Virus record (IMG/VR): IMGVR_UViG_3300050821_003815
Span: 1 to 44,122 of that record
DNA from: a virus
Reading direction: 5' to 3' (one strand)
Length of the DNA stretch: 44,122 nucleotides
The notes below the pieces were generated by a model. The model searched no databases. It saw nothing but the letters and a program-made list of their open reading frames with translations, and was not told the origin of the DNA. The position numbers and the translations under genes are program-made. Position 1 is the first letter of the stretch. Each line of letters opens with the position of its first letter. Positions 7 through 43,525 of this stretch are shown here, piece after piece.

Positions 7-96
7 GGAGAGGTGCGTGAGCGGTTGAAACGATCCGCCTCGAAAGCGGACATACCTTAACGGGTATCGGGGGTTCGAATCCCCCCCTCTCCGCCA
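7..96 (+). tRNA. tRNA-Ser (anticodon CGA)
   Basis: A 90-nt serine tRNA with a long variable arm. The 7-bp acceptor stem pairs GGAGAGG (7-13) with CCTCTCC (86-92). The anticodon stem TCCGC/GCGGA (34-38/46-50) encloses a loop with anticodon CGA at 41-43, reading UCG codons. The variable arm hairpin lies around 51-69, the T arm carries TTCGAAT, and the discriminator G93 is followed by an encoded CCA. The prophage has integrated at its 3' end, and the element supplies an identical 3' end so the gene stays intact. Confidence 0.97.
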
Positions 97-98
97 GA
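76..98 (+). repeat. attL core (23-bp direct repeat in the tRNA-Ser 3' end)
   Basis: The 23 bases from the T loop through the CCA end plus GA are identical to 43435-43457. Immediately outside this block the two copies diverge (TT versus AC on the left side, T versus C on the right side). Integration into tRNA 3' ends is standard for tyrosine recombinases, and the integrase gene follows 121 bp downstream. Confidence 0.92.
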
Positions 99-154
99 TC
101 TATCTAACACATTGCACACATTTTAGTTCCATTAGTGTCTTCGGTGTGGCACTT

Positions 155-163
155 TTGTGCCGT
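155..163 (+). promoter_or_regulatory. Candidate integrase arm-type site (left copy)
   Basis: The 9-mer TTGTGCCGT occurs here, 57 bp inside attL, and twice inside attR (43332-43340 and 43343-43351). It lies in a nested inverted-repeat stretch: CGGTGTG at 142-148 pairs with CACACCG at 173-179, and GGCAC at 148-152 pairs with GTGCC at 157-161. Arm-type binding sites for the integrase N-terminal domain are the natural reading, but this is inferred only from recurrence at both att sites. Confidence 0.5.
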
Positions 164-219
164 TGCGACGGGCACACCGTCTGTGTACTCTATCTTTGGG
201 TAGGCGGAAGGGTAGAGCC

Positions 220-1341
220 ATGGAAATCACGGTATACAAGCGACACAGCGCGGACTGCGAACATAAAGACGACCGGAGCTACAAAAAATGCACCTGCCGG
301 ATGATGATGGAATACTCCGTCAACGGGGAGCGGACCCGAGTTTCGGCAAGAACTCGCTCGTGGTCGGAAGCCGAGCAGAAGGCTCGGGCTATGGAGCGGG
401 ACGCCCACGCCAGAACTCTTGGCGAACCACCGAAGGTCGGTGAGCCGATCTCGCTGGATACTGCGGTTGACATGTTCACCGCGAAGAAGTCTGGCAAGCA
501 CAAAGAGACCCGCCGCAAGTATCAATACACCCTCAATAACCTGAAAGCTTGGGCGTCCAAGCATGGCCGTTTGTACCTGGCAGACATTACTGAGAGCGAC
601 CTTGAGAAGTACCAGTCCACTTGGACTCTCAACAGCAACTTTGCCAAGCGCAACGAGCAGGAACGATTGCGGTCTTTTTTCCGCTATTGCTGCGCCAGCG
701 CCGAGATTCGGCTGGCGTTCAATCCCACGTCGCAGCTTGAACACTTCAACGTGACCAGTGATGAGCCGGAAGACCCGTACACTGAGAAAGAGTGCAGGGC
801 GATTGTGGCGGCGGTCGACAAGTGCAAGTTTGAGTCGGAGGTTGCGGACAGAGTCAAGGCACTCATTGCCGTCATGCGATACGCTGGCTTAGCGATCCAA
901 GACGCTGCGATCTTGGAGCGGGACGCCGTGACTCCTGCCCAAGTGGGCGGGAAAGCCTGCCATCGTGTAATGATCCGTCGCGGCAAGACTCACACCGGCA
1001 TTGACAACGTGATACCCAAGGCCGTAGGGGACGCCCTTCTCAAAGTTGCCAATGGCAACCCCAAGTACATTTTCTGGTCTGGCAACGGTGAACCCGTCAG
1101 CACCACGAAGCACTGGCACGCCCGCCTGAAGAAAGTGTTTGACGCCTCGGGAGTCAAGAACGCCCACGCCCACCGTTTTAGGAAGACTTTTGGGGTTGAG
1201 CTTCTTACCAAAGGAGCGCCGTTGGAGATGGTGAGCAAGGCGCTCGGCCATCGGAACACCGTGATTACAGAACGCCATTACCTGAAGTGGGTGCCCAAAC
1301 TTCGTGAACAACTAGCGGCGCACATCGCCCGAAGCTGGTAG
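220..1341 (+). CDS. int: Tyrosine recombinase / phage integrase
   Basis: This 373-aa site-specific recombinase should catalyse integration and excision at the adjacent tRNA-Ser. The C-terminal catalytic domain shows the family residues: Arg220 in MRYAGLAIQDAA, the HRFR box (His318, Arg321), His344 in LGHR and the nucleophile Tyr354 in ERHYLKW. The N-terminal half (about residues 80-185) fits the SAM-like core-binding domain. The extreme N-terminus has a Cys-rich piece (HSADCEHKDDRSYKKCTC) that may be a small zinc-binding arm domain. An upstream in-frame start at 157 exists, but ATG 220 follows a GGAAGGG ribosome site and gives the usual N-terminus. It lies directly inside attL, typical for an integrase gene. 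Confidence 0.95.
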   Translation: MEITVYKRHSADCEHKDDRSYKKCTCRMMMEYSVNGERTRVSARTRSWSEAEQKARAMERDAHARTLGEPPKVGEPISLDTAVDMFTAKKSGKHKETRRKYQYTLNNLKAWASKHGRLYLADITESDLEKYQSTWTLNSNFAKRNEQERLRSFFRYCCASAEIRLAFNPTSQLEHFNVTSDEPEDPYTEKECRAIVAAVDKCKFESEVADRVKALIAVMRYAGLAIQDAAILERDAVTPAQVGGKACHRVMIRRGKTHTGIDNVIPKAVGDALLKVANGNPKYIFWSGNGEPVSTTKHWHARLKKVFDASGVKNAHAHRFRKTFGVELLTKGAPLEMVSKALGHRNTVITERHYLKWVPKLREQLAAHIARSW

Positions 1342-3430: not shown

Positions 3431-3652
3431 ATGTTAGATACAGGACCGTCAATGCTCACGACAAACCAGTTAGCCGCTGAGCTAGGCATCGGACGCGAAG
3501 CGGCACGTAAGCTCATGCTCACGACTCGCGGCGTTATAACACTACCCGCGCTGAATGGCACCGGCAAGAACGAAACCCGGCGTATGCCTCGCAAAGTGTT
3601 TGAGGCGCTGCTCATTCAACGGAGCAAACCGCTACAGAAAGGACGGCTCTAA
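3431..3652 (+). CDS. Small helix-turn-helix protein, excisionase/MerR-like
   Basis: This 73-aa basic protein has a clear helix-turn-helix near its N-terminus: LTTNQLAAELGIGREAARKL, typical of excisionase, AlpA or MerR-like DNA-binding domains. It could be the recombination directionality factor or an early regulator. ATG 3452 is an alternative start (66 aa) with its own AGGA site. A small palindrome lies directly upstream, consistent with autoregulation. The stop codon abuts the next start (TAA ATG at 3650-3655). A degenerate copy of its last codons is present at 4036-4120. Confidence 0.8.
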   Translation: MLDTGPSMLTTNQLAAELGIGREAARKLMLTTRGVITLPALNGTGKNETRRMPRKVFEALLIQRSKPLQKGRL

Positions 3653-3985
3653 ATGTCCTCGGACGCAGAATTGTGGTGGACCTCACCCGAGGCTAAAGAA
3701 GCTCGCAGGCTCACCTATCAGGTAGAGGTTGCGGTTGACACGCTTAGAGGATACTCAGACCCTCTCTACCCGGACGACACTTACGCGGTGCATATTGACG
3801 GCAAAGGGACAATCCTCATAGACAACGAGCGAGTACAGTTTGTGGTTAGTCACGGACAGTTACGCGCTAGTACGGGATATGACGGACAGACTAGAGTAGC
3901 GGTCAAGGATTGGCGCAAACGGAAGGACGCCATGGCGATAGGGAGAGCTATCAACGAAGCTATATGGGCAAAGTGGAACGAGTAA
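3653..3985 (+). CDS. Hypothetical protein, copy 1 of a duplicated phage family
   Basis: This 110-aa protein starts on the codon after the upstream stop. Its family is not known to me. It is clearly related to the protein at 4771-5223: both share KGTI(L/I)ID-ERV in the middle and QTRV-V-DW-KR-DA-AI in the C-terminal part (here QTRVAVKDWRKRKDAMAIGR). The shared segment looks like a small alpha/beta domain with two strands before the conserved KGTI and an amphipathic helix after the conserved DW. A tandem duplication of this part of the early region is the simplest explanation. Confidence 0.75.
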   Translation: MSSDAELWWTSPEAKEARRLTYQVEVAVDTLRGYSDPLYPDDTYAVHIDGKGTILIDNERVQFVVSHGQLRASTGYDGQTRVAVKDWRKRKDAMAIGRAINEAIWAKWNE

Positions 3986-4035
3986 CGCCAAAGGGGATAA
4001 CTAAGCATGACCATTGACGAGTTGTATTGTCGGAG

Positions 4036-4161
4036 GTGTTCGAGGCTGGTGTGAGCCTTCGCCAATGGTCAGATTTTCTGTTGAGCAAGGAGCCGCTACA
4101 GAAAAGACGGCTCTCTAATCGTTATGCCGTAACACGCCCCAACCGATTAAGGAGGACGTAA
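4036..4161 (+). pseudogene. Degenerate duplicate of the 3' end of the helix-turn-helix gene
   Basis: In one frame this stretch reads VFEAG, then a short insertion, then LLSKEPLQKRRL. This mirrors the end of the protein encoded at 3431-3652 (KVFEALLIQRSKPLQKGRL). At DNA level, CCGCTACAGAAA and GACGGCTCT are shared in the same order (3631-3650 against 4093-4115). No proper start or N-terminal part exists. A 15-codon frame with ATG at 4007 (MTIDELYCRRCSRLV) lies just before it and may be an unrelated leader. Confidence 0.5.
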
Positions 4162-4162
4162 G

Positions 4163-4774
4163 ATGACCTTTGATACAACCAAGCTGGACGGATTCAACAA
4201 GCAACAAGCCGAGGCGAGGAAATACAGTGACCGATGGAGCGGCGTGGAGCGCAAAGCGCAGCAATCCACTACACCAACACCACAACCCGAGACCAAGCCC
4301 GAAGGCTCTTCCCGACCTGGAACCATCAGACCGACCAGCGAGGAACTAAAGAAGCAAATCGCTGACAAGTCCCGCCGCTTGGAGGTTGACAAGAACTACC
4401 AGCGGCTTGCCACAGGTGAGGGCAAGCTCAGGCGTAAGGAAATCACTAACCTCAAGGCGGACCTCAAGAAAGCCGAGAGCCGCGAGAGGGGCGAGGCAAG
4501 ACGGAAAGCACAAGCCGAGCGTCTGGCAAACAAGGTCGGCAAGAAAGAGGTCCAGCGTCTCGGAACAGGCAAGGCGCGGATACTCGCGGCTCTCAAAGCG
4601 GCGGGTCGGAAGGGTTGCACCAACACTGAGCTATCGGCAATACAACTGCGATACGGCGGCTCAACCCACGAGCTGGAGAAAGATGGTTATGACATAACGG
4701 TTACTCGAATTGAGGGCGGTCTCTTTCGCTACGTGTTGGACATGAGCAAGAGCACCGCTGAGGAATTGCTATGA
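4163..4774 (+). CDS. Coiled-coil protein with C-terminal winged-helix domain
   Basis: This 203-aa protein has a textbook ribosome site (TAAGGAGG, 4148-4155). Residues 1-55 are polar and disordered (TTPTPQPETKPEG). Residues about 55-130 form a highly charged coiled coil. Residues about 135-195 form a winged-helix domain: KARILAALKAAGRKGCTNTE, then a helix with LRYGGSTHELEKDGY, then the wing GGLFRYVL. This pattern matches the phage-associated HTH_39 type of winged helix. It may be a transcription or replication regulator. It overlaps the next gene by 4 bp (ATGA). Confidence 0.8.
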   Translation: MTFDTTKLDGFNKQQAEARKYSDRWSGVERKAQQSTTPTPQPETKPEGSSRPGTIRPTSEELKKQIADKSRRLEVDKNYQRLATGEGKLRRKEITNLKADLKKAESRERGEARRKAQAERLANKVGKKEVQRLGTGKARILAALKAAGRKGCTNTELSAIQLRYGGSTHELEKDGYDITVTRIEGGLFRYVLDMSKSTAEELL

Positions 4775-5223
4775 GTGACAACCGATCAGAGATTGACAGC
4801 AACGCCGCCAGACTTGCCAGAAAGTGCAACTATCAGGTACAGATTGACGGACCAATTACGGGGGATTTTGAATCGAACGATAACGACCCACAAGATGTAT
4901 ACGGTAAGGGGACGATTATAATAGACGGAGAGCGCGTTACATGGTCGAGGTCCCGAGGTAACACACGTCAATTTAATGCGTATAGCGCCCAAACGAGAGT
5001 TTCCGTAACAGACTGGACTAAGCGTCAAGACGCCGAGGCTATCCGCTCAGCAATTGTTGAGGCGCTATACGACAGCCCCGAGCGTCCAATTAGGTCCCAC
5101 GGCGTTATATACACCATACACGAGATTGACCGTATGATCGAAACAGAGCGAACAACGAAACCTAAAAAGCAATCGGATGACGAGGACGATGATTTGAAAC
5201 TAATAATAGGGGGCTCCTCGTGA
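4771..5223 (+). CDS. Hypothetical protein, copy 2 of a duplicated phage family
   Basis: This 150-aa paralogue of the protein at 3653-3985 shares YGKGTIIIDGERV, QTRVSVTDW and KRQDAEAIRSAI with the matching parts of copy 1. It has a longer C-terminal tail ending in a very acidic stretch (SDDEDDDLKLIIGG). Its start overlaps the stop of the winged-helix gene. The reading frame stops at TGA 5221-5223, but the same frame stays open for another 75 codons of protein-like sequence, ending at 5451. A stop-codon readthrough product or a recent split of a longer gene is possible. Confidence 0.75.
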   Translation: MSDNRSEIDSNAARLARKCNYQVQIDGPITGDFESNDNDPQDVYGKGTIIIDGERVTWSRSRGNTRQFNAYSAQTRVSVTDWTKRQDAEAIRSAIVEALYDSPERPIRSHGVIYTIHEIDRMIETERTTKPKKQSDDEDDDLKLIIGGSS

Positions 5224-5451: not shown

Positions 5452-5999
5452 CGGGTCTGCGTCCTAGCAGCCCGATGTCATGGTAAGCGGATACGTCCTG
5501 GTAAGGCAGAGCCTGAGCACCACGTAGCTAGTCGATAAGGACTTCGTTAGACAGTTCCTCAGCTCACTGAAGTAAAGACGCCAAGCCAGCAGGACCCACC
5601 TGAAGCCGTTCCTCGGTGACAATAAGACCGGACCCACAGCGATGTGACGCCGGGCGAGGGAATAGACGTTGCTGACTCGTCCCATTCAGACTGCTTTATA
5701 CTGGACGAAATCAGTAGTAGCTAGGGTAAGCTACTGCTATGCCTGAACCCTTCTCCTACATTACCTGGATGAGAAAGCCGCACATGTTCAAGCACGCGAT
5801 ATATAGTCAACCTCCTCGGTAAAGACAGTAGCGAATCCCAATACTAGGTAGTAGTGAGCTTCCCTGCATTGCAAGATGAGTGCATTGTGACTCCTCCCTG
5901 CTGAGACGGAATCCCGTCATGGCGGCAACGGCGGGCGTCCAACCGTCCGCCGTTGACTAACGACTCCGCACAAGAGGCAGGACTGAGATGAGGTTGAGC
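5452..5999 (+). ncRNA. Gene-free, hairpin-rich segment; possible noncoding RNA
   Basis: About 550 bases with frequent stops in the forward frames and no convincing gene on either strand. Visible structure includes AGTAGCT/AGCTACT (5716-5722/5729-5735), GACGG/CCGTC with a 4-nt loop (5905-5918) and a very stable hairpin at 5926-5955. In the last, CAACGGCGG pairs with CCGCCGTTG and the stem extends by a G-T and two further pairs. A -10-like TATACT lies at 5697-5702 with a poor -35. It may be a structured phage RNA, a long leader for the gene at 6001, or decayed coding DNA; the sequence alone does not decide. Confidence 0.22.
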
Positions 6000-6000
6000 T

Positions 6001-6246
6001 ATGTCTCACAGCGTGATTGTCAAAGGAAAAGCGTTTATCTTCCCTGGCGAGACCTCGGCTGAAGGCTTGCGCTGTAAAGCTCGTATTACGCTAACGCGGC
6101 TGAATAACAAAACCAATACACGTGAGGAGTACGAGACCTCATGCAACCGCTTGCTTGCGAAGCCTAATAGGGACGGCGAGATTAGCGGGGAGCTTAAGTG
6201 TCAATGCGGACAGATAGTAGAGGTTACGGCCAATACCGAGTCTTGA
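6001..6246 (+). CDS. Hypothetical protein, 81 aa
   Basis: A small, mostly beta-type protein with a basic N-terminal half (SHSVIVKGKAFIFPGE) and four cysteines, two of them in KCQCGQ near the C-terminus. A single zinc site is possible if the two upstream cysteines (RCKAR, TSCNR) join them. ATG 6001 is preceded by TGAGG nine bases upstream. It follows the gene-free segment and is the last rightward gene before the leftward membrane-protein gene. I do not recognise the family. Confidence 0.65.
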   Translation: MSHSVIVKGKAFIFPGETSAEGLRCKARITLTRLNNKTNTREEYETSCNRLLAKPNRDGEISGELKCQCGQIVEVTANTES

Positions 6247-6297
6247 AAGTGCAAACTAGTCTTTGGTCAACTCGACTCTAAATATTACGAGGGAACT

Positions 6298-6969
6298 TTA
6301 TCTAAGCAGATGATGCGCCAACCACTGGCTGAGCAAAGTACCGCCAACGCCGATTATCGTGCCAATCGCTAACAACAAAATGTGGTCGCCGTTCCTTTTC
6401 CAAAACGACGACGCGGTTAGTTGTGAATCAAGGGTTACAGAGCGGAAGCCGCCATGGATAACCGGAGCGCCGATGAAAACAATAGGCATTATGCCGAACA
6501 ACATAACCAACACGAGGATGCCATTGTCCTGTCGTTGGTAATGCCAGTTCAGAAATAAAGCAAGTGTTACGACTGCTAAACAGCCAACAACAATACCTTG
6601 GATGGTGAAAACGCGAGCAAGCAGCCTCTTTCGCTTCAAGAGAAATTCTCTGGTTCGACTGAAGAGGAGGTCGGCTCTGTCGGTCTCTTCCGACGTTAAC
6701 ACCATGCCTTCTGAGAGATGCCGAAGCGTTGACGCTTGACTGGTAAGAGCAAGGGTGATGTTTGGTTTAGTCCCTGCAAGTTCTATGGTGCGGACCCGCG
6801 AACCGACGTGATGTTTCAATTCATCGAGTGATTCGTACTCTGAGTCAGCATCCGATATTGTGACGGTGTCGCAATAGGACTGAAACAGGGAAAGTAGTGC
6901 GTCCAGGTCCTCCCGGTAAAGTTTCACAGCCGGAATGTATTCCAGTTTTCCGTGGGTTTTCGGCTTCAT
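6298..6969 (-). CDS. Membrane protein with three predicted helices
   Basis: This 223-aa protein starts at ATG 6969 behind AGGAG (spacing 6), preferred over the in-frame start at 7002. Residues 1-118 are soluble and charged. Three transmembrane helices follow at about 120-140 (IVVGCLAVVTLALF), 150-170 (VLVMLFGIMPIVFI) and 197-215 (ILLLAIGTIIGVGG). The last two are joined by a polar loop of about 25 residues. It is transcribed against all neighbours, with a -10-like TATACT upstream on its own strand. A leftward, single-gene, membrane-anchored product inside a prophage fits a gene expressed in the lysogen, for instance for superinfection exclusion, but the family is unknown to me. Confidence 0.75.
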   Translation of the reverse strand: MKPKTHGKLEYIPAVKLYREDLDALLSLFQSYCDTVTISDADSEYESLDELKHHVGSRVRTIELAGTKPNITLALTSQASTLRHLSEGMVLTSEETDRADLLFSRTREFLLKRKRLLARVFTIQGIVVGCLAVVTLALFLNWHYQRQDNGILVLVMLFGIMPIVFIGAPVIHGGFRSVTLDSQLTASSFWKRNGDHILLLAIGTIIGVGGTLLSQWLAHHLLR

Positions 6970-7022
6970 GGAACGCTCCTGCCAGTATACAGCACGCTCC
7001 ACCTGTAAGGATTACAAGCACT

Positions 7023-8348
7023 ATGACCGACACACCGAGAGCCGTAGCGATATGTCCCACAGCGGACCGCCCCACATATCTGCCCCTCGCTCTTGCGTGC
7101 TTCGCTCATCAAACCTACGCTAACAAGAAACTCGTTGTCATGGACAACGGCGTCAATCCGGTTGAGGCTCTCCTCTCCGGCATGGTTGGTGACATTCAAT
7201 ACGTCAGAGTCCCGCCTTACATTAACAAGCTCAATCACGGTCAGGCAGTGAATGCGTGCTGTGAGTTGGCTAGTGCGAATGACGTTATCTTGTCGTGGGA
7301 CGATGACGATTGGAGCGCACCTAACAGAATGCAGGAGCAGATAGACCGCCTCGTTGAAAGCGGCAAGTCTGTAACCGGCTATCACAATCTCCTGTTTTAC
7401 AACACGCAAGACGGCAAGACCTACAAGTACCTGTACAACGGACCGGGAATGTATGCCTCGGGTACAACGCAATGTTTCACTCGGGACTTTTGGAAGCGCA
7501 ATCCGTTTCCTGATAAGCCGAAAGGTGCGGACGGTGACTTTAGCAAGGTGGCGCAACGTCAAGGGCAGCTAATATCTGTCCCCGGCGTAGGAATCATGGT
7601 TGCTCGCTCTCATTCGGATTCCACTTGTCCGCCCAAGCTCGGGGCTAGACAATTCCCCTCTTTTCCTCGTGAGCAATTCCCGCCGCAGTTCTTTGAGGAC
7701 CTAGAACGTCTTTATAACGGACAACCAGCCGTGCTAACGACGCCTCGTGTCCTCATAGCAATTCTGTCTTGCCACAAGTACGCCGAGCGCCGTCAATTGC
7801 AACGCTCTACGTGGATTCAGCACCTACCAGAACACTTTGACTATCGCTTTTTCGTTGGCGAGCCGTTTACAGGCGGCGCTCAAGACGAGGTTTGCTTGCC
7901 AGTCCCGGACGATTACGACAACCTACCGCTCAAGACTCGCGCTATTTGCAATTGGGCGTATCAGCGTGGTTATAACTCAGTCTTCAAGATTGACGACGAC
8001 ACATTTGTGATGCCGGACCGTCTGGTTAAGCCGGACGCCGATTACACAGGTCACCTTCGCATAGACGCGCCTCACAATAGCGGCGTCAACTACGCTCGCG
8101 GCGGTTGCGGCTATTGGCTCTCGCGGCGCTCACTGCAATGCTTGATTGATGCGCCGGAGTTGCTCAAGCCTGGAATCGAGGACGGTCTAGTAGGAAAAGC
8201 TCTGTTGCGTTGCGGTATAGCGCCACAGCATGACGCTCGTTACGAAGCCGCGCCTCACAACGTTCCTAACCAAGACAACGACATTATTACTGCTCATTGT
8301 CCGAATCCCGCGTTAATGACAGACCTGAACAGGATACTACATAGGTAA
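7023..8348 (+). CDS. Two-domain glycosyltransferase (GT2-like plus GT31-like)
   Basis: This 441-aa protein carries two nucleotide-sugar transferase domains. Residues about 5-210 form a GT-A fold of the GT2 type, opening with VAICPTADRPTYLPLAL and carrying the metal-binding run SWDDDDWSAPNRM. Residues about 245-430 resemble GT31 beta-1,3-galactosyltransferases: RRQLQRSTWIQH near the start, the DxD motif KIDDDTFVMPDRL, GGCGYWLSRRSL and the IEDGLVGKAL box that matches the conserved ED(V) element. ATG 7023 has an AAGGA site; the longer frame from 6897 overlaps the opposite gene. No signal peptide is seen, so it acts in the cytoplasm. Likely substrates are host surface glycans or a phage component. 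It sits directly before the packaging genes. Confidence 0.85.
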   Translation: MTDTPRAVAICPTADRPTYLPLALACFAHQTYANKKLVVMDNGVNPVEALLSGMVGDIQYVRVPPYINKLNHGQAVNACCELASANDVILSWDDDDWSAPNRMQEQIDRLVESGKSVTGYHNLLFYNTQDGKTYKYLYNGPGMYASGTTQCFTRDFWKRNPFPDKPKGADGDFSKVAQRQGQLISVPGVGIMVARSHSDSTCPPKLGARQFPSFPREQFPPQFFEDLERLYNGQPAVLTTPRVLIAILSCHKYAERRQLQRSTWIQHLPEHFDYRFFVGEPFTGGAQDEVCLPVPDDYDNLPLKTRAICNWAYQRGYNSVFKIDDDTFVMPDRLVKPDADYTGHLRIDAPHNSGVNYARGGCGYWLSRRSLQCLIDAPELLKPGIEDGLVGKALLRCGIAPQHDARYEAAPHNVPNQDNDIITAHCPNPALMTDLNRILHR

Positions 8349-26624: not shown

Positions 26625-27278
26625 TCAGGTAGTTAGGGCGTCGAGTGCTTTCCTCAGCTTGGCTGCTTCGCGTGCGACAATCGCGGCACATTTCTCGCTG
26701 TTTCTACCCAATGTGAAAGGGTACATAGGGTGGAACAGCGGGACGTAGGGAGTCCGACAGCCGCTCAGCAGGTACTGCTTCTCGGCAGGGATTCCCAGCG
26801 TGGCTACCAGACGGGGTTTGATCCGTGCGATCTGCAGGTGCAGGAAGGCTCGGCACTGCTCGAAGTATTCCGTGTCGGCTATCACCTTGCCGGGGGACTT
26901 AACAGGTTGCAAGCCCACGAACACGTTGGTAAAGAAGCAATCCAGCTTATCGACTTTAGCTGTTTCGAGGTAGCGCCGGAGGATGAGCCAAGTAGCCCCG
27001 CCCATCACTTCAACTCCGCGCACGCACGAGGCTTCAAGCCCGGCAACCTTGTCAAAGTTATGTCCCAGGACCATGATTGGGCGTCGCGGGAAATTGGGAG
27101 GCGCATCGCCATGCGGCTCTAATCCTCGCCATAGCCCAATACCTCCAGGGAAGAAAGCAGTGCCGTCCACACGCCGATGTACCTTGACAGCTCCAAGGCC
27201 ATAGGCGGTGACCGTAGATTCCATTTTCTTAAACAGGTCGGCTACAACGACAGGGGTCTCTTCTAACTGCTCTTCCAT
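26625..27278 (-). CDS. Uracil-DNA-glycosylase-like protein (moron)
   Basis: This 217-aa protein has the order of motifs of the UDG superfamily: RPIMVLGHNFDK (first motif, normally with the water-activating residue), CFFTNVFVGLQP, the strand PRLVATLGIPA and the final PLFHPMYPF in place of the HPS motif. It lacks the iron-sulfur cysteines of families 4 and 5 in the usual positions. The likely role is excision of a modified base or simple nucleic-acid binding, but activity cannot be told from sequence. It is transcribed leftward from a TATAAT at 27320-27325, with a palindrome downstream of it, so it is independently controlled. Start ATG 27278 follows AGGAACGG. Confidence 0.78.
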   Translation of the reverse strand: MEEQLEETPVVVADLFKKMESTVTAYGLGAVKVHRRVDGTAFFPGGIGLWRGLEPHGDAPPNFPRRPIMVLGHNFDKVAGLEASCVRGVEVMGGATWLILRRYLETAKVDKLDCFFTNVFVGLQPVKSPGKVIADTEYFEQCRAFLHLQIARIKPRLVATLGIPAEKQYLLSGCRTPYVPLFHPMYPFTLGRNSEKCAAIVAREAAKLRKALDALTT

Positions 27279-37354: not shown

Positions 37355-38542
37355 ATGTCTTTTTCGGACGAGGTTGAGTTACATCGCATCTACGCGGGTG
37401 CGCGAGAAAACCGCAATGCCTACTTTGAGAAGCTCGCCTTGTTGGACGGCGGCACGGTTGCACTCGTAATAACCGCCGTGCTCGGACCGCTACACGGACA
37501 GATAACGCACAAGTATCTCCTCGGCGTAGGTCTCTCCGTTCTGGTACTTGCTCTGCTCCTGCTCTTACGGCGCAATTTTCTCGCTGCTCAATTCGAGTTT
37601 CACGCCGCCGCGAATACCGCAAAAGACCCGGTTTTCCTCGGTAGCTCCGAGGCAAAGAAGCGGACGAAATGGCTCACAAAAGATATTCATTACACAGAGG
37701 GTGTCGGCGTGGTGCTCTCTGCACTCGGTATCTTGCTCCTGCTCGTTGAGGTTTGGTTTCTCATCGTTGCTACACCCAGCGCCCCTCTCCCCGGAGTTGA
37801 CCCTCGCGACCTCTCGCACACGTCCCCATCTTCGCTGAGTATCGGGACTAACGTAGTAAATCAGGCGGCACCCTACGCACAGAATGACAGGACCACAAAC
37901 GAATCGAAAAGCTATTTCTCGCGCCTGTTTTCTCCCGAGAACCTCCCTAACATCGCATTGGTAGTCGTTGGCATCGGAGGCATCATAACGGCTATCTGTA
38001 CCCTCAGACTCATCAAGACGCAGACGATTGATACTGGCATAGCTGCGAATGCTGCTTTGCTTAATGCTCAAGCCGTCATAAACACTGAAAGACCCTGGCT
38101 TGTGGTGAGCGTCCACAGCGACCCGTATCTGGCGAACGGGTTCTTCTTTAGGATAACCAACAAGGGAAGGACTCCGGCGAATGTTGTCTCTGCTTACCGC
38201 GAACAGAAAATCGTTGACCTTCCAGACAGGCTACGCATACCACCAGAGTATTCCTCTCCGATGTACAGCCCGGAAGACAATCTGATAGTAGCGGACGGAA
38301 AATGGGAGGACCGTCCTTCCTTTAACCCCGAAGCCGTAATTAGTAATCCAGCCGGAGCGCGGGAAGCGTTTGAGAATGCCGCACAATTTCTCTGCTTTTA
38401 CGGGCAAGTCACCTACCGGGATAGTTTTGGACAAAGGAGCGGAGATTCCGGCGAACATTACACTCGTTGGTGTTATGTGTATGATGTTTCCCAAAAGCGG
38501 ATGGTGGTGAGCGGACCGCAGGAATATCGCGGCAAGACGTAG
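37355..38542 (+). CDS. Membrane protein with four helices and a soluble C-terminal domain
   Basis: This 395-aa protein has predicted helices at about 28-46 (GGTVALVITAVLGPL), 54-71 (LLGVGLSVLVLALLLLL), 117-140 and 194-215 (IALVVVGIGGIITAIC). The first 27 residues and the loop between helices 2 and 3 are cytoplasmic-type and charged. A C-terminal soluble domain of about 165 residues begins with AQAVINTERPWLVVSV and contains FFRITNKGRTPANVV, a beta-sandwich pattern seen in many uncharacterised bacterial membrane proteins. GGAG-AAGGAG gives a strong ribosome site. It is the second gene of the operon and could be a membrane effector or sensor. Confidence 0.8.
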   Translation: MSFSDEVELHRIYAGARENRNAYFEKLALLDGGTVALVITAVLGPLHGQITHKYLLGVGLSVLVLALLLLLRRNFLAAQFEFHAAANTAKDPVFLGSSEAKKRTKWLTKDIHYTEGVGVVLSALGILLLLVEVWFLIVATPSAPLPGVDPRDLSHTSPSSLSIGTNVVNQAAPYAQNDRTTNESKSYFSRLFSPENLPNIALVVVGIGGIITAICTLRLIKTQTIDTGIAANAALLNAQAVINTERPWLVVSVHSDPYLANGFFFRITNKGRTPANVVSAYREQKIVDLPDRLRIPPEYSSPMYSPEDNLIVADGKWEDRPSFNPEAVISNPAGAREAFENAAQFLCFYGQVTYRDSFGQRSGDSGEHYTRWCYVYDVSQKRMVVSGPQEYRGKT

Positions 38543-38610: not shown

Positions 38611-39297
38611 ATGGCTAAGAGAACTCTTGACAAGAAAAATCTCGGACAGCATGAAGATTGGTACGGTAACAACGCAGCCATGCGTTGTCCGGTGTGCGGC
38701 AAGCTATTCATAGTCTCTCGTTTCATTGCAAAGGGGCAACGGCGATGCCCAAAGTGTCTGAGGTCCACAGCACAGATAACAAGTGAGCAGGTAACGATTG
38801 AGTGGTCGGATGCAGAAAACAAACCAAGCGTTAGCACACGGAAAGAACTGGAGAACGATAAGAGGTTGGACGAGTTTATCAACGTGGTCAATGAAGGCGG
38901 CGCTATTCGTCATCGTAGCATTGCTGCCAAATTGCCGAGAACGGACAAAGTTGCATTCATCGAACGTGGGGGAAATATGGTAGCGGTCGCAGCCATAAAG
39001 ACTGCTAGTCCGAAATATGCAAAGAAACTCACGAAGCGAAGCGGTTACCAACTATCCGGGGACATTCCAGAACTGGGGTATATCGCTGTTCTCTGTGATT
39101 GGCGAGGCTTACATTTGTCAACCGAGGTAGCAGAGAAAATCCTCTCTGACTTCGGTAGGGGGAAGTTGTTTGCCACTACGAGCAGTCCGCAGATAAAGCG
39201 CATTCTTGCTAACAGCGATTTTACAATGGTCGGACGGGAGTGGAAGGACAAGAATCTTAGTCATAAGTTGTCTCTCTGGATTAGAAAAACGAAGTGA
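38611..39297 (+). CDS. Zinc-ribbon and GNAT acetyltransferase-like fusion
   Basis: This 228-aa protein opens with a zinc ribbon (Cys26, Cys29 in RCPVCGKLF; Cys46, Cys49 in RCPKCLR). After a charged helix, residues about 95-228 follow a GNAT pattern: GGNMVAVAAIKTASPKY as the central strand, ELGYIAVLCDWRGLHLS in place of the acetyl-CoA loop, KLFATTSSPQIKRILANSDF and the closing VGREWKDKNLSHKLSLWI. The pyrophosphate-binding RGxGL motif is degenerate (WRGLHLS), so coenzyme binding is uncertain. Possible roles are acetylation of a protein or RNA, or a non-catalytic binding domain. Third gene of the operon. Confidence 0.68.
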   Translation: MAKRTLDKKNLGQHEDWYGNNAAMRCPVCGKLFIVSRFIAKGQRRCPKCLRSTAQITSEQVTIEWSDAENKPSVSTRKELENDKRLDEFINVVNEGGAIRHRSIAAKLPRTDKVAFIERGGNMVAVAAIKTASPKYAKKLTKRSGYQLSGDIPELGYIAVLCDWRGLHLSTEVAEKILSDFGRGKLFATTSSPQIKRILANSDFTMVGREWKDKNLSHKLSLWIRKTK

Positions 39298-39339: not shown

Positions 39340-40272
39340 ATGACCATTTGTGCCGCTGCCTTGGCTGCGAAGTCAAAGGCAATCGTATGCGTGGCGGACA
39401 AGGCTATGAGTTTCGGGGATGTCATATCGTGGGATTCAGATGTAACAAAGATTGTTCCTCTGAGTCATCCGGGATGCGTTGCGATGATGTCCGGTCCAGA
39501 GGAAGGAACTTCTAGGGTACTTTCTGCTTTGCTTGCTATCGCCGACTTGGGTAGCACGGTCGAGGAAATCAAGAAAACGTGTGAGCGGGAGTACGGCGAA
39601 TGTGTCCAAGAGTTGATTGAGCAGAAGTTTCTAAAGCCTCGGTTGCTGACGAAAGAACTATACAAGACCGCCACGACCGGCGCGGAAGTAAACTCTGCTA
39701 TTGAGGCTCTGAGTAGCGAGATTAAGGGCTACAGCATAGGGTGTGATTTTATTGTCTGCGGATTCGATTCTAAGAAATCACCGTTCATCTTAGATTTGAG
39801 CCTCCCTGACGGTACGGCGACTGACATGACCTCCGTTGGATTCGCCGCTATCGGTAGCGGGCATGAATACACCTTGGCGCGATTACTCTTTCTAACACAC
39901 CGCAGAGATGATGATTTAGATAAGTCCCTTTATGACGTTTTCGATGCAAAAGCAAGCGCCGAAATGTCTCCTACGGTTGGCACCGACTGGGACTCTGTTG
40001 TCGTTTATTGTGGTGGTGACGGCACGGCTAAAGTTGAATTTGTTGACGATGATATTAACGACTTGATTGAGCGCGTTTGGTTTCACAAGGCTGCCCTTTC
40101 GCCTTACGAGAAGAGGGAGGCGGGACAGCCAACGAAGCCTCCTCGCGCATGGAAGTCCAAGTTAAAGAAATACGCGGACAAACTCCTCAGCCCCGAGAAG
40201 CCTTCAGATTCTTCTCAAGGGAAAGCGCTGTCTAAGGGGAAGATTGTTGCACCGCGAGAGGAGCAGACATGA
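39340..40272 (+). CDS. Proteasome-like Ntn hydrolase
   Basis: This 310-aa protein looks like a proteasome beta/HslV-type Ntn hydrolase. After removal of Met the first residue is Thr (MTICAAALAAKS), the position of the catalytic nucleophile. Asp19 (VCVADKAMSFGD) and Lys36 (SDVTKIVPLS) match the Asp17 and Lys33 of the family, and GFAAIGSGHEYTLARLL is the usual glycine-serine-glycine segment. The core ends near residue 240; a lysine-rich tail of about 65 residues follows (SKLKKYADKLLSPEK). It has no signal peptide. No ATPase partner such as HslU is encoded nearby. TAGGAAT precedes ATG 39340, and its stop overlaps the lipoprotein start. Confidence 0.75.
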   Translation: MTICAAALAAKSKAIVCVADKAMSFGDVISWDSDVTKIVPLSHPGCVAMMSGPEEGTSRVLSALLAIADLGSTVEEIKKTCEREYGECVQELIEQKFLKPRLLTKELYKTATTGAEVNSAIEALSSEIKGYSIGCDFIVCGFDSKKSPFILDLSLPDGTATDMTSVGFAAIGSGHEYTLARLLFLTHRRDDDLDKSLYDVFDAKASAEMSPTVGTDWDSVVVYCGGDGTAKVEFVDDDINDLIERVWFHKAALSPYEKREAGQPTKPPRAWKSKLKKYADKLLSPEKPSDSSQGKALSKGKIVAPREEQT

Positions 40273-40685
40273 GGAAATGTTGGACAAACGCGCTCGCCGG
40301 TTTCCTTGCTCTGACGTTAACCGCCGGTTGTGACACTGTGCGCTCTGTGAAATCGGACTTACAGTCCTCAAAGGCTTTCGACAGAAAAGTTCGATGCGAG
40401 ACATACGCGAGCAAGACCGAGCAGTCGTTCAAGGATGCGGATAGAGAACTGACGGGAGGGAAAAGTGGCATCCTCTATTCGGTCGAACGGTCTTTCTACA
40501 GCTCAAAGCGAAACTCCTGTATCTGCGTTGTGAGAGGGTCGTCAGTGGTAAAGGGAAAATCATTTGAGACTATTCAAACGCTCGATGTGTTGACACAAGA
40601 GGATTTAGGATTCAAAAGCTATTCTGGCGATGAACTTCGCAACCTGAATACGGATATAGATGAGAAGGTCAAGAGTCTTGAATAA
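40269..40685 (+). CDS. Lipoprotein
   Basis: This 138-aa protein begins MRKCWTNALAGFLALTLTAGC, a signal peptide ending in the lipobox LTAGC, so the mature protein would start with a lipid-modified Cys21. The rest is polar and helical at first (DLQSSKAFDRKVRCETYA) with two further cysteines (NSCICVV). GAGGAG is spaced five bases from ATG 40269, which overlaps the TGA of the Ntn hydrolase gene. The tight overlap suggests the two products are made together, although one is cytoplasmic and the other envelope-bound. Confidence 0.82.
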   Translation: MRKCWTNALAGFLALTLTAGCDTVRSVKSDLQSSKAFDRKVRCETYASKTEQSFKDADRELTGGKSGILYSVERSFYSSKRNSCICVVRGSSVVKGKSFETIQTLDVLTQEDLGFKSYSGDELRNLNTDIDEKVKSLE

Positions 40686-41154
40686 TACGAATGGCGAGAA
40701 CGACGCACGAGTGCGCGAGATTCTTGCGACCGTCAAGCCGCTCGGGGCGGAATACTACCGGCTTACCGGAAAGCCTCTTGGTGTAACCGGCGAGGTTGCG
40801 GAGTATGTAGCCGCCGAGGTCCTTGGATTGACACTCGTCCCCGCTCGCACTATCGGCTACGACGCACTACGTGGCAAAGAGCGGATACAGATAAAGGGAC
40901 GCGCCTACGGTGCGAAAGCCAAGCCGGGACAACGAATGTCTCGCATCAAACTGGATGCGCCGTGCGATACGGTATTGCTCGTGCTCTTGGACAACGCGAC
41001 ACTAGAGGCTCGCGAGATGTGGGAAGCTAAATACGAGTCCGTTTGTGAGTGCCTCAGACGCCCCGGCTCCAAAGCAAGGGAGCGAGGCGCATTGAGTGTT
41101 TCGGCCTTCAAAGATCTGCCGACTGCTCGGCGCGTATTCCCGGTTGAGGTCTAA
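40660..41154 (+). CDS. PD-(D/E)XK-like protein (DUF6998-type)
   Basis: This 164-aa protein has the layout of a restriction-endonuclease-like fold: GEVAEYVAAEVLGLTLV as the first helix with a conserved Glu, GYDAL with the metal-binding Asp, and RIQIKGRAYG as the (E/Q)xK strand. SRIKLDAPCDTVLLVLLD and the closing ALSVSAFKDLPTARRVF fit the uncharacterised DUF6998-type proteins of phages and defence loci. Catalytic Asp and Lys are present, so nuclease activity is possible. The start is either ATG 40660, overlapping the previous gene by 26 bases, or TTG 40678 with an AAGGT site. Confidence 0.72.
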   Translation: MRRSRVLNNTNGENDARVREILATVKPLGAEYYRLTGKPLGVTGEVAEYVAAEVLGLTLVPARTIGYDALRGKERIQIKGRAYGAKAKPGQRMSRIKLDAPCDTVLLVLLDNATLEAREMWEAKYESVCECLRRPGSKARERGALSVSAFKDLPTARRVFPVEV

Positions 41155-41212
41155 AAGATGAGCCGCCCGAAGGTAAGGAGAAATGCCCGGCTCGTGATTG
41201 AGAGGTAGGAAT

Positions 41213-42100
41213 ATGGCGGTGAAGATACACTTTCGGCGCATGGAAAATGAGGACTTCTGGAGACTGCTATTGCCATTCATATTTTCTTTTGTAATTGGCG
41301 TTCTCCTCAAACTGTGGAATCCATGCTACTCGTGGCTTTATGGCATCGCCTCACCATTGGCAGACGCTTTCATGGTGGCTGGAATTATTGGTGTAGGGCT
41401 GGAACTCGTCGCAACGAAATTCTTGATTGAAAGTGCGGCGGATGATTTAGCTGGAAAGCTGGTCGGGCGGGGGTTGCCACGGGAATTGCAGAGACACATT
41501 ATTGATATCGTAAACACGAAGATAGTTCGAGACCATTACGTAAAATCCTACCGTTTTAGTGAGCCTAACGACGAACACAGGGTAAAGGTCGAGTTGGAAA
41601 TCAGATTTGATGTTCGCAATTGGTCTGAGTTGCCCGTTTCCTATACTCCGACTATGGACGAAGAGGATGTTTTTAAGCCTGAGTTCCTCTATTTGGAATA
41701 CCAGATTAAAGGAAAGCCTCCAAAAAGTTTTAGCGCACAGCAACTCGAAGCGAGAATAAAGAATAAGTATGAGCCGAGCACTACGACCAAGGAAGTCAGT
41801 GGTGACGAAATCCAACTAGAACCATTTCGCGACAACCCTGAGTCTATATGCAACGTGACATGGCGACTAAGGGTTACGTTGCCAGATGAATTTAGCGATG
41901 TTAGCGAATTTCACGATGCCACAATTGGCGCGACTTTACGCCTTGCGGAAAGACCGGATTGGTTACAGTTTGAATCCTCTGGAGATATGCAGCCACGCAA
42001 TGAAGAGAGCCTATCGTGGGTATTCAACGGACCTTTCATAGCCGGACAGCAGATACGCGCTCGGTGGTTTCGTAAACCGGGTACAAGGAGAAATCATTAA
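41213..42100 (+). CDS. Two-helix membrane protein with large soluble domain
   Basis: This 295-aa protein starts at ATG 41213 (AGGTAGGA upstream). Two membrane helices lie at about 17-36 (LLLPFIFSFVIGVLLKL) and 48-68 (DAFMVAGIIGVGLELVA), so the N- and C-termini are on the same side. The remaining 225 residues are charged; a helix (PRELQRHIIDIVNTKIV) precedes a beta-rich region (HRVKVELEIRFDVRNW, ICNVTWRLRVTLPDE). The plan of two helices plus a beta-rich cytoplasmic domain is common among membrane effectors of phage-defence systems. It ends the operon. A 16-codon frame at 41158-41208 (MSRPKVRRNARLVIER) lies just before it. Confidence 0.75.
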   Translation: MAVKIHFRRMENEDFWRLLLPFIFSFVIGVLLKLWNPCYSWLYGIASPLADAFMVAGIIGVGLELVATKFLIESAADDLAGKLVGRGLPRELQRHIIDIVNTKIVRDHYVKSYRFSEPNDEHRVKVELEIRFDVRNWSELPVSYTPTMDEEDVFKPEFLYLEYQIKGKPPKSFSAQQLEARIKNKYEPSTTTKEVSGDEIQLEPFRDNPESICNVTWRLRVTLPDEFSDVSEFHDATIGATLRLAERPDWLQFESSGDMQPRNEESLSWVFNGPFIAGQQIRARWFRKPGTRRNH

Positions 42101-42118: not shown

Positions 42119-42490
42119 TCATCTTTTTCTAGCAGCATCCTCATCCAAGAATGTTTCCTTCAGGCTGTGGCGCTTGACAAAACCAAGCAATCTATTCCGC
42201 ATCTCCATGCCATAAATCCATTCCATCAAAAGACCCTCGTCGTTGCAGTTCTTTTTCAAACTCGGATTGGCGTCTTGGCAATCATGTATGTAGCCGACCC
42301 TAGTAAATAACTCGTTAAAGGACAGGCTAGACACTTCATTCGCCCCACCGTGTGATGCTCGATTAATATCCGCCATCCACAGATTGAAATCTGCTTGGCA
42401 AGCATCCAGCGTAGGGGCGTGCTTAATCTCTTGTGCCACAGTTGGCAGAGATATTACCAACAACATCGCAGCAATCAATAAGTTTTTCAT
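42119..42490 (-). CDS. Secreted protein, paralogue A
   Basis: This 123-aa protein has the signal peptide MKNLLIAAMLLVISLPTVAQ. The mature part is helical with three cysteines and ends with RHSLKETFLDEDAARKR. It is related to its upstream neighbour (42490-42837), whose end is RHDLWHTFLVEDAAGER; both also share the cysteine near the mature start (LDACQAD against PEQCKTD) and one in the middle. The pair arose by tandem duplication. Its start overlaps the stop of the neighbour (TAATG on the minus strand), so they form an operon. Function unknown. Confidence 0.8.
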   Translation of the reverse strand: MKNLLIAAMLLVISLPTVAQEIKHAPTLDACQADFNLWMADINRASHGGANEVSSLSFNELFTRVGYIHDCQDANPSLKKNCNDEGLLMEWIYGMEMRNRLLGFVKRHSLKETFLDEDAARKR

Positions 42491-42837
42491 TATCTTTCAC
42501 CTGCCGCATCCTCAACAAGAAATGTATGCCAGAGGTCATGGCGACCAATAAAATGGCTCTCCCTGCGCCGATATTCCAGTGCATACGTGGCAATTATTTC
42601 CATGTACAAACTTTGCTCTTTCTCGGATTCGGTTAAGGAAACACATTGCGCCATCGCGTCGATTCGGCGACCAACTTCCTCAATTGAAAGCTTGTCCATT
42701 GGTTGATTGTCTCTCGCGTAGTCATACCACGCACCCGCATCGGTCTTGCATTGTTCTGGCGTTGGCTTGACTGTGGCTTCTTGGGCAACGACCCCAACAG
42801 CCATGACAATTAAAGCAATTGCCGCGATTCTGCTCAT
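42490..42837 (-). CDS. Secreted protein, paralogue B
   Basis: This 115-aa protein starts at ATG 42837, giving MSRIAAIALIVMAVGVVAQ as signal peptide; the longer frame to 42861 places polar residues before it. Like paralogue A it has cysteines at PEQCKTD and MAQCVSL and the C-terminal block HDLWHTFLVEDAA. The helices around KLSIEEVGRRIDAM correspond to SLSFNELFTRVGYI in paralogue A. It is the first gene of the leftward pair and is divergent from the secreted protein at 42992. Small exported helical proteins with a conserved C-terminal motif could be envelope stress or immunity-type factors; this is a guess. Confidence 0.78.
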   Translation of the reverse strand: MSRIAAIALIVMAVGVVAQEATVKPTPEQCKTDAGAWYDYARDNQPMDKLSIEEVGRRIDAMAQCVSLTESEKEQSLYMEIIATYALEYRRRESHFIGRHDLWHTFLVEDAAGER

Positions 42838-42991
42838 GGGACCTCCATAGGACACGCCCATAATACGCTTGTTGGCTACACTTGAGATTCCGCTCTGCTC
42901 GCTCGCGGTAGCCGGGTTGTCAGACCTTGCACTTTAGTGCCATTGCATCTTGTTCACCCTAAGCCGAGGATGGCTGCATTCGGAGGATGCT

Positions 42992-43351: not shown

Positions 43352-43434
43352 CATATCAGGGAAGGGCGGTAAGCGTGGTATCTATGGTAGTGTGAAGTCA
43401 GCAAGTTACCTGTTATCAATATGGACAGTGGGAC

Positions 43435-43457
43435 CGAATCCCCCCCTCTCCGCCAGA
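43435..43457 (+). repeat. attR core (23-bp direct repeat)
   Basis: An exact copy of the tRNA-Ser 3' end (76-98) with no tRNA body attached, as expected of the distal attachment site. It separates prophage DNA from the host transporter gene. Confidence 0.92.
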
Positions 43458-43525
43458 CCTTTGATAGCTGCTGCAATCTGCCGTACTTGGCTGCCGTGGT
43501 GTCCACCTTTTCCCATCGACGAGCG

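Follow-up and report, generated by a model that had tools for sequence, protein, structure and literature searches.

The window, that is, the whole stretch of 44 122 nt analysed here, is an IMG/VR virus record and resembles a complete, intact-looking prophage at a tRNA-Ser gene. The attachment gene, tRNA-Ser(cga), was located with ARAGORN at 7..96 (+ strand), and by repeat comparison we found the left att copy (71..101, +) within the 3′ end of this tRNA and the right copy at 43430..43460 (+), the two sharing a 23-nt identical core. A tyrosine integrase gene (157..1341, +; PF00589, E=4.3e-15; phrog_1) follows the left repeat, and genes for terminase, portal, head protease, major head, tape measure and tail proteins occupy 9–34 kb. 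Host DNA lies beyond the right repeat and matches chromosomes of Acidobacteriales with identity up to 79%; hence, the host is most likely a soil bacterium of this order. No empty attachment site at tRNA-Ser was observed among the Acidobacteriales host loci examined. The att repeats, the integrase together with the structural genes, and the host flank bear out the prophage setting that had been proposed from the sequence. The prophage also carries, in this order, a glycosyltransferase/galactosyltransferase-like gene (6897-8348) and a gene of the uracil-DNA-glycosylase superfamily (26625-27278).

The gene under study (39340..40272, +) belongs to the accessory region on the right-hand side of the prophage, which extends from the tail genes towards the right att repeat. 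It is an ORF of 310 aa with an ATG start, and Pfam (PF00227), AlphaFold (AF2) and Foldseek analyses as well as residue conservation characterize its product as a proteasome-like N-terminal threonine hydrolase (hereafter the Ntn protein). Upstream of it lies a gene for a Zn-ribbon-like protein of 228 aa (38611..39297, +), which has Cys pairs and only sub-threshold matches to Zn-ribbon Pfam models, and the reading of its sequence suggests a GNAT-like C-terminal half. Downstream, a small lipoprotein ORF of 138 aa (40269-40685, +), with the lipobox LTAGC assigned by reading, overlaps the stop codon of the Ntn gene in an ATGA, an overlap consistent with the translational coupling to a lipoprotein gene that had been noted earlier. 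We observed no relative of this lipoprotein in 298 Acidobacteriales genomes. At two loci carrying relatives of the Ntn gene, L002 and L075, the gene is followed by a small ORF whose product has a signal-like N terminus but is unrelated in sequence to the prophage lipoprotein. We therefore rejected the idea of a conserved lipoprotein partner, as only the habit of having a small exported ORF 3′ of the Ntn gene recurs.

Further to the right, a DUF6998 protein resembling methyl-directed type II restriction enzymes is encoded at 40660..41154 (+; PF22522, E=5.7e-7; PADLOC mREase_II, E=6.7e-32). Two adjacent genes at 42119-42490 and 42490-42861 (−) encode similar-looking small exported proteins of 123 aa each, and these are probably a tandem duplication.

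Active site and predicted fold of the Ntn protein

The match of the ORF to PF00227 (proteasome subunit) had an E-value of 1.7e-5 and a score of 25.0 bits, the cut-off being 22.4. As this match exceeds the cut-off, the proteasome-type order of the motifs is not due to chance. The predicted nucleophile is Thr2, which would become Thr1 once Met is removed, and the other predicted active-site residues are Asp20, Lys37, Gly52 and the GSG at 172-174; in the mature numbering, Asp20 and Lys37 are Asp19 and Lys36. The start and nucleophile codons, ATG ACC, lie at 39340..39345 (+). Hence, the original prediction of a Thr directly after the initiator Met, with Asp19, Lys36 and GSG in proteasome order, was correct. 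The catalytic set of the superfamily consists of the Thr1 nucleophile, Asp17/Lys33 and Gly47 (PMC8665760), and in a profile alignment against PDB sequences the N-terminal region of the family was in register with the archaeal proteasome beta subunit. Single-sequence phmmer searches of PDB with the Ntn protein returned catenin as sole matches; we discarded these as chance hits, and the family profile was needed instead. In the NCBIfam scan, no model named the Ntn protein and neither HslV nor the Anbu family matched, while PHROGs gave only a sub-threshold hint towards a phage HslV-like family.

Among 32 aligned sequences, we observed that Asp20, Lys37, Gly172 and Gly174 are invariant (32/32), residue 2 is Thr in 30 and Ser in 2, and Gly52, the equivalent of the oxyanion-hole Gly47, is kept in 28. 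The position between the two glycines, 173, is variable (Ser in 19, Thr in 6 and others in 7). As this column, the Ser129 equivalent, is not strictly conserved in the relatives, the peptidase chemistry is not assured.

We considered a propeptide in the relatives, since their reading frames frequently stay open further upstream. However, ATG, GTG or TTG immediately precedes the Thr/Ser codon in every intact relative, all three being used, as the ATG precedes Thr in the window copy, and a propeptide was judged unlikely given these start codons. A Shine-Dalgarno-like sequence is present upstream in 21 of 31 relatives, against a background of 15%. The start codon in front of Thr/Ser and the enrichment in Shine-Dalgarno-like sequences, which together make the strongest sequence evidence, therefore argue that translation begins directly before the nucleophile, which makes a propeptide unnecessary.

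The AF2 model of the Ntn protein, built with 32 sequences, had a mean pLDDT of 90.3 and a pTM of 0.86, and its strands and helices follow the proteasome order. A Foldseek search of PDB gave 854 matches at E≤1e-3; among the matches listed, all were proteasome subunits or Anbu, with 12-18% identity and TM-scores, normalised to the target length, that reached about 0.7. The confidence of the model and its matches to proteasome beta and alpha subunits and to Anbu support a four-layer Ntn fold, so that structure prediction upheld the proteasome-type assignment. We conclude that the ORF encodes an Ntn hydrolase of the proteasome superfamily, its fold being a confident prediction and its active site being conserved.

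The model has both H1 and H2, the latter being long (residues 74-101), and a helical insertion is predicted at residues 105-129 (39652..39726, +), where it separates H2 from the following strand and takes the position of the pore loop of the proteasome; its two helices span 105-113 and 119-129. H3 and H4 correspond to helices 175-184 and 193-209, with eight residues (185-192) between them. The C-terminal extension (residues 257-310; 40108..40269, +) had been described as lysine-rich, and it is indeed basic: AF2 predicts a helix at 271-283 followed by a basic tail of low confidence, the pLDDT by block reaching up to 96 at the helix and 54-58 at the end. The region of the C-terminal helix also aligns in the relatives L002, L004 and L015.

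None of the window ORFs scanned showed an AAA+ domain, and strict Walker-A-like strings occurred in the window only in the tape-measure protein. These scans agree with the earlier statement that no unfoldase is encoded near the gene. Genomes having relatives of the Ntn gene carry their own HslV elsewhere in 13 of 14 cases (exactly one copy each), and HslU scored above the cut-off in 13 of 14. As the host genomes carry HslV/HslU elsewhere, the Ntn family is not the HslV of its hosts.

The original prediction had also suggested that the bacterial forms are chromosomal HslV and Anbu. This was not supported, since Fuchs, Alva and Lupas (2021) added 22 homologs of the proteasome from prokaryotes that have no AAA+ partners and of which several occur in phages (PMC8665760). 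A search of a viral fold library matched phage proteins of proteasome-like fold, one of which is annotated as HslV. Thus, phage-borne proteasome homologs without AAA+ partners are already known.

We compared the Ntn protein with the known types. HslV has the same fold and triad, and HslV-like proteins are also known in phages; however, the Ntn protein has no NCBIfam match to HslV and no adjoining HslU, and differs in its 310 aa with the insertion and the tail. Anbu gave one of the best structural matches (5nyw, with a TM of 0.70 by target length), but the Ntn protein differs from it in the missing NCBIfam match, the helical insertion after H2 and the prophage/transposon context. The neighbours of the Ntn gene also differ from the usual genes of the Anbu operon. 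PPH is likewise a phage-borne proteasome homolog without an AAA+ partner, but it has about 140 residues and lacks H2, whereas the Ntn protein has 310 residues and a long H2. There is also a likeness in described features to PHI and PMI-3/PMI-4, which share Thr1/Asp/Lys, a helical insertion after H1/H2 and the lack of an AAA+ partner, PMI-4 being also found in phages; these three subfamilies carry their insertion at the same site (PMC8665760). An insertion between H3 and H4 is a feature of PMI-2 to PMI-6, and by comparison with their descriptions only, the Ntn protein lacks it, having just the eight residues there.

Relatives and their residence in transposons

The best GTDB relative of the Ntn protein was the one at L002, from an Acidobacteriaceae MAG, with 44% identity. 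Our search for relatives was mostly within one order, Acidobacteriales, where matches were present in 12 of 298 genomes with the protein as query and in 35 of 397 with a profile, some of the latter being weak and partial. As it is present in few of these genomes, the Ntn gene is an accessory gene. INPHARED phages and PLSDB plasmids contained no relatives. In scans of viral contigs, the window protein (P0001) and the A2 profile gave 0 matches and the A3 profile six. We assembled 33 Acidobacteriales loci with their flanks and six IMG/VR loci, three of the six being near-identical; the IMG/VR contigs are viral by database listing. The two tail-protein relatives from IMG/VR had no Ntn gene within the stretches examined.

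Two of the loci have unusual arrangements of the hydrolase. On the IMG/VR contig L030, two Ntn-hydrolase genes stand in tandem (5815-6810 and 6934-7938), with a fragment of an IS1-type transposase after them. At L039 (6704-9289, −), a GHKL-ATPase/nuclease-like ORF of 861 aa reads through, with no intervening stop codon, into an Ntn-hydrolase domain, which has its own Shine-Dalgarno sequence and ATG ACG start; this ORF, near a tRNA-like sequence, may be a fusion or a truncated chimera.

Most relatives of the Ntn gene adjoin IS1595- or IS1-type transposases, many of them inside demonstrable transposons, a point absent from the original prediction. A transposase gene faces the Ntn gene convergently in 20 of the 33 Acidobacteriales loci, 18 being of IS1595 type (identified by PF12762 and PF12760) and 2 of IS1 type (identified by PF03400 among the IS1-type relatives tested). 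In roughly one third of the loci, no transposase lies in the vicinity. On the IMG/VR contigs L027, L031 and L032, the Ntn gene is also convergent with an IS1-type transposase, and the transposase of L030 is the fragment mentioned above. L031 has in addition a second IS1-type transposase gene (544-1808) with a different small convergent ORF.

Eleven elements (L033, L040, L044, L047, L075, L077, L079, L080, L086, L088 and L090) have the Ntn–transposase pair enclosed by terminal inverted repeats (CAxGATTATTCACTTGAC), with a perfect 8-bp duplication of the target starting precisely where the repeats end, and the L002 element has a 9-bp target duplication. We estimated how often such pairing would arise by chance from 14 genomes, which together gave 97 matches to IS1595 transposases: a convergent IS1595 transposase within 700 bp was observed for 12 of 20 Ntn genes, against 0.012 expected. 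The IS1595-type elements at L002, L033, L077 and L079 are inserted in the middle of the palindrome GGCACGACT..AGTCGTGCC, which suggests that these elements prefer a palindromic target in Acidobacteriales.

The convergent slot is not reserved for the Ntn gene. In the related IS1595 elements L102, L103 and L106 it is filled by genes for membrane proteins whose C-terminal part is soluble (1760-2800, 3758-4969 and 3619-4881, respectively), and these resemble in layout the window ORFs 37355-38542 and 41198-42100. As closely related elements carry other passengers in this slot, transposition does not require the hydrolase. At L092 (1869-2792) and L094 (3528-4373), more divergent ORFs with a Thr right after a start-type residue occupy the same IS1595 slot; we read these as proteasome-like from one weak profile match in one case and from reading only in the other.

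IS1595-family elements with passenger genes were reportedly described by Siguier, Gagnevin and Chandler in 2009. The relatives of the Ntn gene are alike in being passengers and in having 8-bp target duplications; the window copy differs in lying outside any recognisable element. Passenger genes are known in some insertion-sequence families (PMC7986276). We found no report of proteasome relatives as transposon passengers in the open-access library searched, and Fuchs et al. (2021) made no mention of transposons and observed that no genomic context hinted at function (PMC8665760). Therefore, what is new here is that the family resides in transposons flanked by target duplications, that its genes are paired with transposases of two families and that a copy is present in an Acidobacteriales prophage. 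An orphan family thus gains a clear context as an IS1595-/IS1-type passenger and as prophage cargo, and this raises the questions of what a small mobile element gains from a proteasome-like enzyme and of how such an enzyme works without an unfoldase.

In the tree, the window protein clusters with those of L002, L033 and L075, all of them IS1595-borne, with a support of 100/98. Searches with the repeat pattern, the repeat consensus and the transposase HMM revealed neither terminal repeats nor a transposase, intact or as a remnant, at the window copy. Hence, we rejected a transposon still recognisable around it, there being no terminal repeat, target duplication or transposase. The prophage copy was most likely captured from a transposon element. 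As the window copy is without repeats or transposase, this capture is read from the tree only and could be reversed; we infer its direction from a single clade.

Proposed mode of action and alternatives

We consider it likely that the gene encodes a mobile, unfoldase-independent, N-terminal-threonine hydrolase of the proteasome superfamily, which was taken up as prophage cargo from a transposon lineage. Methionine aminopeptidase takes off Met when it precedes Thr. With translation starting directly before the nucleophile, the host enzyme would expose Thr1 and no propeptide step would intervene. Thr1, together with Asp19 and Lys36, would then attack peptide bonds in substrates that are small or unfolded, and no dedicated unfoldase would be used. 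The lineage would be carried mainly as a convergent passenger of IS1595-type (and IS1-type) transposons of Acidobacteriales, from one of which the prophage would have taken its copy, keeping it as an accessory gene in the right-hand region. The removal of Met, peptidase activity, oligomerisation and a benefit to the phage or the lysogen are what we infer from this scheme. As no dedicated unfoldase is seen beside the gene, the enzyme most probably acts independently of ATP on substrates that are small or unfolded, and such a mode has been argued for other proteasome homologs (PMC8665760).

The presence of the Ntn gene in the accessory region of a prophage, with the PADLOC mREase_II-like gene nearby, led us to weigh whether the product is a defence or anti-defence protease of the phage or element, one that destroys an intruder or is triggered by it. 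Cargo genes of mobile elements are often defence genes. However, no PADLOC model matches the hydrolase and the neighbours of the Ntn gene vary from locus to locus, and we regard this function as unlikely.

Less probable still is that the hydrolase is an accessory factor of the elements themselves, the transposon copies processing or degrading the transposase or a host regulator and so tuning transposition, and the prophage copy being reused. The tight convergent pairing of the Ntn gene with two transposase families and the more distant proteasome-like ORFs in the same slot at L092 and L094 would agree with such a role, but the close IS1595 elements L102, L103 and L106 hold quite different passengers and the prophage copy stands alone. 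It is conceivable, if doubtful, that a whole family of proteasome-like threonine proteases, all independent of unfoldases, is common to bacterial insertion sequences and phages and acts in the service of the mobile element itself, either by transposase control or by disabling host defence; if true, these would be the first proteasome relatives functioning in mobile-element biology.

Finally, a transpeptidase or a specific processing enzyme in place of a degrading protease, although suggested by connectase, a proteasome homolog that acts as a monomeric protein ligase (PMC8665760), and by an insertion near the cavity that could narrow specificity, appears improbable, as the insertion of connectase lies between S3 and S4 and its first helix pair is missing, whereas in the Ntn model the insertion follows H2 and both H1 and H2 are present.
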